Shown here: positions 8,232-11,153 of the stretch, in pieces
How the letters are laid out: every line of letters begins with the position of its first letter
Numbering within the stretch: position 1 is the stretch's first letter
Assembly: GCA_021827685.1 (NCBI GenBank)
Contig: JAKAUM010000009.1
Location: 1 to 45,919 of the forward strand
From: a bacterium
GTDB taxonomy: Bacteria > Patescibacteriota > Minisyncoccia > UBA6257 > 2-01-FULL-56-20
DNA: 45,919 nt
Direction of reading: 5' to 3'
The notes under the pieces: model-generated
What the model was told of the DNA's origin: nothing
What the model saw: the letters and a program-made list of their open reading frames with translations, nothing else
Databases searched by the model: none
Position numbers and translations under genes: made by a program

Positions 8232-9128
8232 ATGACCGGACAGGAGCGGCAATATTTCGCGCGGGCGAGAAACGAGCGCACCGAGCACATTGTCTACGGC
8301 GCTTTGGCGCGGCGCGAACGGAACCCGAAGAATCGCGCGCTCCTCGAAAAAATGTCCTCGGATGAACATGCCCATTATGAATTCTGGCGGACGCTTTTGC
8401 CGGAGGGCGACAGGGACGCCGTAAGGCCCGATGCGCGGCAGATCGCCCTCATGCCGATTGTGCGCGCCGTATTCGGCCTTACTTTCGCGGCGAAGATCCT
8501 GGAGTCGCATGAAAAAAATTCCATCGAAGAATACGAGCGCATCCTTCCCCTTATCCCGGAAGCGCGGCGCGCCGAGCTCGCGCGCATCATAGAAGACGAG
8601 CGTTCGCATGAACGGTCCCTCCTCGCGGAAATAAAAGAGCGGCGCGTGAGCTATCTCGGATTCGTGGCGCTCGGCCTTTCGGATGCCATTGTGGAAATCA
8701 CGGGCGTGCACGCCGGGTTCCTCGGAGTAACCGGCTCCACGCTCATCGCCGGCATCGCGGGCGTGATCGTGGGATTCTCCGCCGCAATTTCAATGGGCGC
8801 GGCGGCGTACCTCCAAGCGAAACAGGATCCCGCCATCCAGCCCATCCCCTCCGCGTTCATCACGGGCTCCACCTATCTGTGCTCGGTCATTTTCCTCGCG
8901 CTTCCCTATTTCCTCATCCGGACGATGATCGTCGCGTTCGCCATTTCGAGCACGGTCGGCCTGCTTCTTCTCGCCGCATTCACGTTCTACGGCGCCGTCG
9001 TATTCGACCGCCGCTTCATCCGCGAATTCGGCGAATCGGCATCCCTCATGATGGGTACTGCGGGCGCGACGTACCTCCTCGGCGCCGCCGTCGGTTACGC
9101 ATTCCACGTGAACTCGGCGAGCTTCTGA
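8232..9128 (+). CDS. Ferritin-like/rubrerythrin-type domain fused to VIT1/CCC1 family membrane domain
   Basis: N-terminal helical SSDEHAHYEFW...IEDERSHERSLL, then SYLGFVALGLSDAIVEITGVHAGFLGV... with C-terminal TM helices. Confidence 0.85.
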   Translation: MTGQERQYFARARNERTEHIVYGALARRERNPKNRALLEKMSSDEHAHYEFWRTLLPEGDRDAVRPDARQIALMPIVRAVFGLTFAAKILESHEKNSIEEYERILPLIPEARRAELARIIEDERSHERSLLAEIKERRVSYLGFVALGLSDAIVEITGVHAGFLGVTGSTLIAGIAGVIVGFSAAISMGAAAYLQAKQDPAIQPIPSAFITGSTYLCSVIFLALPYFLIRTMIVAFAISSTVGLLLLAAFTFYGAVVFDRRFIREFGESASLMMGTAGATYLLGAAVGYAFHVNSASF

Positions 9129-9164: not shown

Positions 9165-9497
9165 ATGGATCTCGCCCAAAAACACTGCGTCCCGTGCGAG
9201 GGCGGCATGCCGCCGCTCCCGCCCGAATCGGTGGCTGATTACATGAAATTCGCGCCCGGCTGGGCGGCATCCTCGGACGCCAAAGAAATTTCACGCGAAT
9301 TCAAATTCAAGGATTTTGCGGGGGCCATGGCCTTCGTCAATAAGGTCGCGGACATTGCGAACGCCGAAGGTCATCATCCGGATATCTATATCTTCTACGA
9401 TACGGTCCGGCTTACGAGCTCCACGCATGCGATCGGCGGCCTTTCGGAAAATGATTTTATTCTTGCGGCGAAGATCAACGCGCTTACGGCGGCGTAG
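9165..9497 (+). CDS. 4a-hydroxytetrahydrobiopterin dehydratase (pterin-4a-carbinolamine dehydratase)
   Basis: FKFKDFAGAMAFVNKVADIANAEGHHPDIYIFYDTVRLTSSTHAIGGLSENDFILAAKIN. Confidence 0.9.
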   Translation: MDLAQKHCVPCEGGMPPLPPESVADYMKFAPGWAASSDAKEISREFKFKDFAGAMAFVNKVADIANAEGHHPDIYIFYDTVRLTSSTHAIGGLSENDFILAAKINALTAA

Positions 9498-9592: not shown

Positions 9593-9628
9593 AAAAAAAC
9601 CGGGCCTTAAATAAAAGGCTCGGCTTTT
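9593..9628 (-). terminator. Intrinsic terminator of the candidate ncRNA (possibly bidirectional)
   Basis: Minus strand: AAAAAGCCGAGCCTT-TTATTT-AAGGCCCGGTTTTTTT. Confidence 0.75.
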
Positions 9629-9746
9629 TGCTATCCCGTCCGATCTCTGGCTTGCGCCAAGTGGGTGGGCTCAGGAGCAATCCACGGATTGCAACGCTAA
9701 TCGCCCTCCCGTAATGAGTTATTTGATCCGAGATCTGCGACGGGAT
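9593..9746 (-). ncRNA. Candidate structured small RNA with its own promoter and terminator; no known class recognised
   Basis: Minus-strand TATAAT (9753-9758) 6 nt before the 5' end; closing helix 9740-9746/9633-9639 plus 9730-9735/9642-9647; internal helix GGGAGGGC/GCCCACCC; hairpins GCAATCC-GT-GGATTGC and TGGC-GCAA-GCCA; terminator CCGAGCCTT..AAGGCCCGGTTTTTTT. Confidence 0.6.
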
Positions 9747-9752
9747 ACGTTT

Positions 9753-9758
9753 ATTATA
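9753..9758 (-). promoter_or_regulatory. -10 box of the candidate ncRNA (TATAAT)
   Basis: Plus strand attata at 9753-9758; 6 nt from the first base of the closing helix. Confidence 0.6.
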
Positions 9759-9762
9759 CACC

Positions 9763-9791
9763 TTGAGTTGGGGGTTTGTATCAACTACAAT
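9763..9791 (+). promoter_or_regulatory. Sigma70-type promoter for the PEGA-domain gene
   Basis: TTGAGT-N17-TACAAT, ending 9 nt before ATG 9801. Confidence 0.6.
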
Positions 9792-9800
9792 TCAAGCCGT

Positions 9801-11153
9801 ATGAAGAAACGTACGCGGCGGGCCGTTTTTTATTCATTATTGGCCCTTTTTCCCCTCATCGGGGCGATTGTCGTGCTTTATGCACAGGGGTGGCGCTTTG
9901 ATTTCGCTACGTGGAGGGCGGAGAAGGTCGGCGTGATTCTCGTGCGGCCCTATCCGGCGGACGCCTCTATCACCCTGAACGGAAAGCCGGTGCAAAACCA
10001 GTCAGGATTCCTGTCCCAAACCACCGCCATCACCGGACTCTTCCCGGGAAACTACGCGCTTTCGCTCCGCTCGCCCGGATACCGCAGCTGGAATGAGAAT
10101 GCCCCGGTGGATCCGTCGCTCGTAACCGAATTCGGGGATGCCGTTTTAGTCCCCGATGCGCCCGCGACCACGACGGCCGGCGGCGGCATCGCGGCCTTCG
10201 AGGATACCTCGGACGGAATAGTCCTGCAGATGCCTGACGGGGCAATCATGCTCGGCGGCGACGCCGTCGCGCGCGGCGCGCTTGTCGGCGCGGCGGACGG
10301 AACGGACGGGGCGGCGCCCGCGCTGCCGCAGGCATTCCTCTTCCGGACTTTTTCAGGCAGTTATGAACGCTACGATCTCGCCGCCGCGACCGCCACCGAC
10401 GTTTCTGCGCCGCTCGCGCGCGCAGGCGCGCGAGCGGCGCAGATGGAAACGATCGCGCTCGATCCGTACGACGCGGGCGCGATCATCGCCATCGGCGCGG
10501 ATGGCGCGTGGCGCGTGCGGTCCGGAGAATCCGGCGCGACGCTCATCGCGCGACCGCCGCGCGGCGGAACATTCACCGCGGCGCTCGCGCCTTCGCCCTC
10601 ATTCCTCGCATGGTCGTCCTTCAATCCGGTCGCGGACAGCTCCGCCGCCGAAATCTACGACCAAGGGTCCGGCGCGGTCGTCGCAACCACTTCGGCGCTC
10701 TCCGGAAAAACCGTTTCGCTCGGATGGATTTCCCCTTCTCTCCTCGGCATCCTTCAAAACGACGGGGCGCTTTATGAATACGACCTGAACGCCCGCGCAA
10801 CGAAAAGAATCGCCGGCGACGTAAGGCAGTTTGCCGCCGCGCCGGACGGTTCCGCGATCGCCGCGCTCGAAAAAAACAGCTTGGAAATCCTTCCCCTCAC
10901 GGACGCCGCGACGTACCACCGGTTCAATCTTCCGGACGCCGCGACCGCGCTCCAGGCCATCTGGTACGGGGACTCCGCCCACCTCTTCATCGCCTACCCC
11001 GGCTCCGTCTCTTTCTTGGACCTCGAGGATGCCGGCCTCCGCAACTTCATATCTGTCGCAAAAGGGAACGACCCTATTTACAATTCTCAAGAAAATGTTC
11101 TTTATCTCCTGAATGGCGCCCGAAAACTGGAGCAGTTTGACTTCCCAAGCTGA
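9801..11153 (+). CDS. PEGA domain-containing membrane-anchored protein
   Basis: N-terminal TM (RRAVFYSLLALFPLIGAIVVLYAQGW), then PEGA-like VGVILVRPYPADASITLNGKPV..GLFPGNYALSLRSPGY; beta-propeller-like remainder. Confidence 0.8.
   Translation: MKKRTRRAVFYSLLALFPLIGAIVVLYAQGWRFDFATWRAEKVGVILVRPYPADASITLNGKPVQNQSGFLSQTTAITGLFPGNYALSLRSPGYRSWNENAPVDPSLVTEFGDAVLVPDAPATTTAGGGIAAFEDTSDGIVLQMPDGAIMLGGDAVARGALVGAADGTDGAAPALPQAFLFRTFSGSYERYDLAAATATDVSAPLARAGARAAQMETIALDPYDAGAIIAIGADGAWRVRSGESGATLIARPPRGGTFTAALAPSPSFLAWSSFNPVADSSAAEIYDQGSGAVVATTSALSGKTVSLGWISPSLLGILQNDGALYEYDLNARATKRIAGDVRQFAAAPDGSAIAALEKNSLEILPLTDAATYHRFNLPDAATALQAIWYGDSAHLFIAYPGSVSFLDLEDAGLRNFISVAKGNDPIYNSQENVLYLLNGARKLEQFDFPS

Follow-up and report, generated by a model that had tools for sequence, protein, structure and literature searches.

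A compact RNA of Patescibacteriota, invisible to Rfam, is very probably a diverged 6S RNA

The window analysed here, a 45,919-nt stretch of DNA from a bacterium of the phylum Patescibacteriota, encodes on its minus strand what is very probably a compact, diverged 6S RNA, a homologue of ssrS/bsrA that would sequester RpoD-RNA polymerase and template pRNA. 6S RNA mimics a promoter in its opened state and thereby keeps RNA polymerase parked. For the RNA of the window, polymerase binding and pRNA synthesis are expected by analogy with 6S biology. The RNA does not found a class of its own but is a compact variant of 6S that Rfam fails to see.

The RNA gene occupies the gap between a pterin dehydratase gene and a PEGA-type gene (Table 1). 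Every element that an earlier note had listed from the letters alone, stems and terminator included, was found there on the minus strand. A 6-nt spacer separates the TATAAT box (9758-9753) from the RNA 5' end at 9746, the U7 run of the terminator lies at 9599-9593, and the predicted primary transcript, including the terminator, is ~154 nt long. The two covariance models introduced below, R1 and R2, both match the window at 9632-9747.

Table 1. Coordinates of the RNA, its parts and the adjoining genes in the window.
Feature	Position	Strand	Basis
-10 box TATAAT, RNA's own promoter	9753..9758	-	Seen in the sequence; -10 counts in homologues
Structured core (114 nt) of the probable compact 6S RNA	9633..9746	-	R1/R2 matches; fold z -4.4; covariation; homology to RF00013 via bridging genomes
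Outer closing stem, 5' arm AUCCCGU	9740..9746	-	Pairs with 9633-9639; fold and covariation (helix 1)
Outer closing stem, 3' arm ACGGGAU	9633..9639	-	Fold and covariation
Inner closing stem, 5' arm GAUCUC	9730..9735	-	Pairs with 9642-9647; fold and covariation (helices 2 and 3)
Inner closing stem, 3' arm GAGAUC	9642..9647	-	Fold and covariation
5' central-bubble strand GGAUCAAAUAACUCAUUAC, unpaired	9711..9729	-	Fold and alignment conservation
Apical stem base, 5' arm GGGAGGGC	9703..9710	-	Fold and covariation (helix 4)
Apical stem base, 3' arm GCCCACCC	9663..9670	-	Fold and covariation
Apical hairpin GCAAUC-CGUG-GAUUGC	9677..9692	-	Fold and covariation (helix 5)
3' central-bubble hairpin UGGC-GCAA-GCCA	9648..9659	-	Fold and covariation (helix 6)
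Intrinsic terminator hairpin and U7 run	9593..9629	-	Fold; terminator counts in homologues
Predicted pRNA 5'-GAUCCGAGAUCUGC, copied from the 5' bubble strand	9725..9738	+	Inference: adjoins the invariant A; conservation to ~position 9; rule from LAB pRNAs (PMC8414754)
Pterin dehydratase gene, Pterin_4a	9165-9497	+	Domain match
PEGA-type gene, divergent from the RNA	about 9801-11153	+	Flanking gene

Several features of the surrounding DNA can be recorded beside it. The product of the PEGA-type gene has no Pfam or NCBIfam match, and a promoter-like TTGAGT-17-TACAAT stands just 5' of the start of this gene (9763-9791, plus strand). The terminator hairpin of the RNA is readable as a plus-strand terminator too (9600-9623) and may end the pterin dehydratase transcript. 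The protein predicted at 8232-9128 (plus strand) combines a match to a rubrerythrin-like N-terminal domain with one to a VIT1-like membrane domain.

The minus-strand sequence folds far better than chance. With its terminator, the 160-nt stretch reaches an MFE of -67.1 kcal/mol (z -5.4), equalled by none of 200 shuffles; the core by itself (116 nt folded) has an MFE of -48.9 and a z of -4.4, and its reverse complement folds less well (z -3.2). The earlier note was right to propose a structured RNA with a three-way junction, whose reality is settled by the homologues and the covariation described below. Its 7-bp apical hairpin closed by a 2-nt GU loop is sterically impossible; the predicted form has 6 bp, GCAAUC/GAUUGC, and a CGUG loop. 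The GNRA hairpin it singled out is present in the window at 9659-9648 and corresponds to the hairpin on the 3' central-bubble strand of 6S; the GNRA loop as such occurs in the window and in few relatives, most homologues having another. One A.A mismatch interrupts the apical stem base GGGAGGGC/GCCCACCC. Taken together, the parts make up the layout of a 6S RNA: a closing stem, a large, conserved and unpaired 5' central bubble, a preformed 3'-bubble hairpin and an apical stem. This arrangement of outer closing stem, 5' central bulge, opposite hairpin and apical stem has been described in lactic acid bacteria (LAB) and B. subtilis (PMC8414754, PMC8876501), and in having a preformed 3'-bubble hairpin the RNA resembles B. 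subtilis 6S-1, not E. coli 6S (PMC8876501).

BLAST with the RNA found relatives across many genera of the window's family; once aligned, nearly all have TATAAT or a close variant ~6 nt ahead of the same stem. In an RNAalifold consensus of 16 sequences there are 31 pairs, and compensatory changes occur in 18 of them. R1, a covariance model from 16 homologues (underlying alignment A2, plain MAFFT), matched 179 of the 244 genomes of the order, with most families represented and nearly always a single match per genome. R2, refined from alignment A3 of 90 order-level homologues, matched 193 of the 244 (~4 in 5), usually in one copy, and 153 of the 189 genomes of good quality, which bears out the conservation that the earlier note had proposed to look for. 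The core measures 109-142 nt across the order (median 119; 114 nt in the window), and GGAUCAA in the 5' central bubble is the family's most conserved run of single-stranded letters.

Covariation supports the model throughout. In A3, 95.1% of cells are paired against 71.7% in shuffles, double-change cells number 695 against 173, and the covariation score is 0.723 against 0.240, counts that are biased by the fitting of A3 to the model's structure, although the plain MAFFT alignment A2 already covaried. Shifting the partner by 1-3 columns lowers the score to 0.106 or less. Both helices for which the earlier note had suggested looking for compensatory changes hold up: in 9740-9746/9633-9639 all 5 modelled outer pairs covary and 98% of cells are paired, and in 9703-9710/9663-9670 (helix 4) 98.7% of cells are paired across the 90 sequences. 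The apical hairpin (helix 5) has double changes at 9 of its 10 pairs.

The distribution of the RNA has some irregularities. Two copies occur in a few genomes, among them G151 (two matches) and G220, the latter with a tandem pair on the same strand, ~220 nt apart (C1:131647-131767 and 131991-132106). Six homologues (L058, L222, L225, L240, L242 and L256; of family f21 where a family is given) have a longer 5' end, with an extra hairpin-like stretch, e.g. GACC...GGTC, between promoter and closing stem; their -10 box, where seen, stands more than 20 nt ahead of the core. In family f9, the genomes listed (G044 and G157-G162, several of them nearly complete) gave no R2 match; either the RNA was lost there or it has diverged beyond the reach of R2. 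A plasmid search with the RNA returned nothing, and a contig scan with CGGATCAA-N55..85-CCCACCTGG proved too loose, unrelated phyla being among the matches listed.

The RNA appears to be transcribed independently, from its own -10 box to its own terminator, as the earlier note had read it, and both signals recur among homologues. Within 25 nt upstream, 77 of the 90 homologues agree with TATAAT at five or more of its six positions, where a control region gave 15 and shuffles gave 29.9; the TGn extension of the -10 box was counted 48 times in the same set. Downstream, a terminator-like hairpin with a T run follows 47 of the 90, against 1 for shuffled flanks. For the RNA of the window itself, the TATAAT box proposed earlier is in place, and a consensus scan of the minus strand yields this -10 box alone, with no sigma-70 -35/-10 pair.

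Rfam does not recognise this RNA directly. A search of all Rfam, suggested by the earlier note, returned only chance-level matches up to E = 10, the best being SNORA14 (E 0.33); the 6S family RF00013 matched neither the RNA, even at a permissive threshold, nor its genome, and R1 and R2 found no match in E. coli ssrS. Since RF00013 is silent in the window and its genome, the two sides were bridged in 287 more distant genomes of the phylum, the same set being searched with RF00013, R1 and R2; neither R1 nor R2 had been trained on any sequence from these genomes. RF00013 matched 22 genomes, in 3 of them (G282, G417 and G457) above the Rfam gathering score, R1 matched 52 and R2 112. R2 and RF00013 coincide in position and strand in 21 of these 22 genomes, G282, G417 and G457 among them; R1 and RF00013 agree in locus and strand in all 10 doubly matched genomes, and with filters off R1 recovered the RF00013 locus at 20 of 20 loci tested, the E values ranging between 8e-15 and 0.39. 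Co-location by chance is negligible for genomes of about one megabase. The alignments also have letters in common, GGGAG at the apical stem base and (C)ACCCACCUGG on its other side. Common descent with known 6S RNAs is thereby established, transitively through the bridging genomes (loci L061-L080), because RF00013 misses the RNA of the window and R1/R2 miss E. coli ssrS. The earlier note had found no resemblance to 6S and implied a separate class of structured RNA; the lack of a direct Rfam match speaks for that reading, to which we give next to no credence given independent models that coincide at 21 of 22 loci, the same layout and the shared letters.

The earlier note could not match the RNA to SRP RNA, tmRNA or RNase P either, and these identities are rejected here. 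The tmRNA (C1:1989-2300) and a sub-threshold match to RNase P (C5:85160-85562) lie elsewhere in the genome, a sign that Rfam models are able to detect RNAs in such genomes. That the RNA could be the lineage's diverged SRP (4.5S) RNA is very improbable. It is small and nearly single-copy, and RF00169 and RF01854 find no SRP RNA in the window's genome or 20 relatives; against this, the loci of the bridging genomes coincide with RF00013 matches, not SRP matches, a long conserved unpaired strand opposite a small hairpin is unlike the SRP rod, and the RNA has no SRP match up to E = 10. Co-location with RF00013 and the fold therefore exclude SRP RNA for the locus of the window. As a separate observation, the SRP RNA of these 21 genomes is strongly diverged or missing, though the tmRNA and RNase P models work there.

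Gene order adds to the argument for a 6S RNA. In nine genomes from other families of the order (L020, L051, L053, L054, L057, L058, L059, L060 and L081), aspS (NCBIfam) is found no more than 1.5 kb from the RNA; in eight of them it is upstream and reads in the same direction. In B. subtilis, the 6S-1 gene bsrA is flanked by aspS and yrvM (PMC11077062), and aspS also neighbours 6S-1 in B. licheniformis (PMC3871023). An aspS neighbourhood does not define 6S in all bacteria; here the synteny offers independent genomic support for orthology, although aspS does not adjoin the copy in the window. A divergent PEGA-type gene stands beside the RNA instead at 20 of the 31 loci with flanks, all of them within the window's family, which might suggest a cis-regulatory element of that gene or of the pterin dehydratase gene. 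Such a role is hardly credible, because the RNA has its own promoter and terminator and the PEGA-type neighbour is confined to this family: the RNA runs on the opposite strand and persists in other families with aspS as its neighbour.

The 6S reading comes with a proposed cycle. The genome has a single sigma factor of RpoD type (410 aa; TIGR02393 353.3 bits, just below the cut-off of 354) and three further sigma-70 proteins, short and ECF-like in appearance; the partner of a 6S RNA and possible competitors are therefore present. The bubble, imitating an opened promoter, would capture the RpoD holoenzyme and so damp housekeeping transcription in slowing cells. Once nucleotides are available again, the 5' bubble strand would serve the polymerase as template for a short pRNA of about GAUCCGAGAUC; this pRNA would unzip the closing stem and free the enzyme. 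By analogy with known pRNAs, the one predicted for the window would begin with GAUCCG. The A next to the putative start C is invariant (88 of 88); if synthesis starts opposite that C, the pRNA consensus of the order is GAUCCGGAAUC, conserved to ~position 9. In LAB, pRNAs have a conserved A before the start, eleven conserved nucleotides and a GG at positions 5/6 or 4/5 (PMC8414754); the GG doublet of the order is one place off, at 6/7, and the window has GAG. Among the unpaired parts of the RNA, the template strand is conserved best, a sequence pattern consistent with the predicted templating of pRNA. In folds with the template masked, run with no shuffle control, the RNA keeps its apical arm and 3'-bubble hairpin, and the 3' arm so freed forms a mean of ~3 pairs with the distal 5' bubble, reminiscent of a collapse helix and absent from the window's own MFE structure. 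An antisense -10-like sequence on the bubble, such as TTATAAT in L007, makes a weak general rule; it fits some columns only, and the bubble of the window fits it poorly.

The RNA shares with B. subtilis 6S-1 (bsrA) and RF00013 the layout and the GGGAG/(C)ACCCACCUGG letters, and with 6S-1 an independent gene with -10 box and terminator and, in related families, the aspS neighbour. It differs in its shorter arms, in falling below RF00013 detection, in the conserved GGAUCAA of the 5' bubble, in a copy that is not beside aspS, and in size: its core has 114 nt (~154 nt with the terminator) against the ~160-200 nt typical of 6S, a length that is not a functional criterion. Full-length RF00013 loci in the same phylum measure 143-161 nt. 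The Aquifex 6S of ~160 nt has been quoted among the shortest known, and a length below 150 nt has been used to exclude 6S candidates (PMC9130861). A truncated B. subtilis 6S-1, reduced to the bubble and two short arms, nevertheless completed the cycle in vitro with ~10-fold lower affinity (PMC8876501), which makes a compact natural 6S plausible. Such constructs have the same central bubble and short arms; they are engineered, whereas the form described here is natural and order-wide. There is also a precedent for a diverged, lineage-specific 6S in 6S-Flavo RNA (RF01685), discovered separately and given its own family (PMC2864571); it belongs to Bacteroidetes, and RF01685 is not among the matches to the RNA of the window up to E = 10.

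A 6S-derived RNA may also change its partner or its cycle, binding core RNA polymerase without sigma or losing pRNA templating to serve enzyme storage only. Ms1 of actinobacteria, a 6S-like RNA of ~230-300 nt with extra hairpins, binds core polymerase without the primary sigma factor (PMC9130861); it shows that the switch is possible, sequence cannot separate holoenzyme from core binding, and the core described here is unusually short. We nonetheless consider this outcome improbable for the window, where the RNA is shorter than Ms1 and has none of its extra terminal hairpins, the template strand is conserved, and related families have 6S-1-type synteny.

In the literature searched, no paper connects 6S RNA to the Candidate Phyla Radiation or to Parcubacteria, older work on 6S distribution (Wehner 2014) being outside that scope and absence from the record thus unproven; the sole paper found that names Patescibacteria alongside '6S RNA' means an SRP RNA by the term. 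By RF00013, 6S seems near-absent from the phylum (22 of 287 genomes, 3 above cut-off); by R2 it appears widespread (112 of 287, and 193 of 244 in the order), and the new covariance model would annotate many genomes. The compact form is close to the minimal laboratory construct and shows what 6S cannot lose. The figure for genome size in this lineage is 0.57 Mb at 90% completeness, and we see a small chance that a naturally minimised 6S clade in very small genomes works differently, for example by binding core RNA polymerase or by a release that does not involve pRNA. Were that so, it would be, at ~110 nt, the smallest functional promoter mimic in nature.
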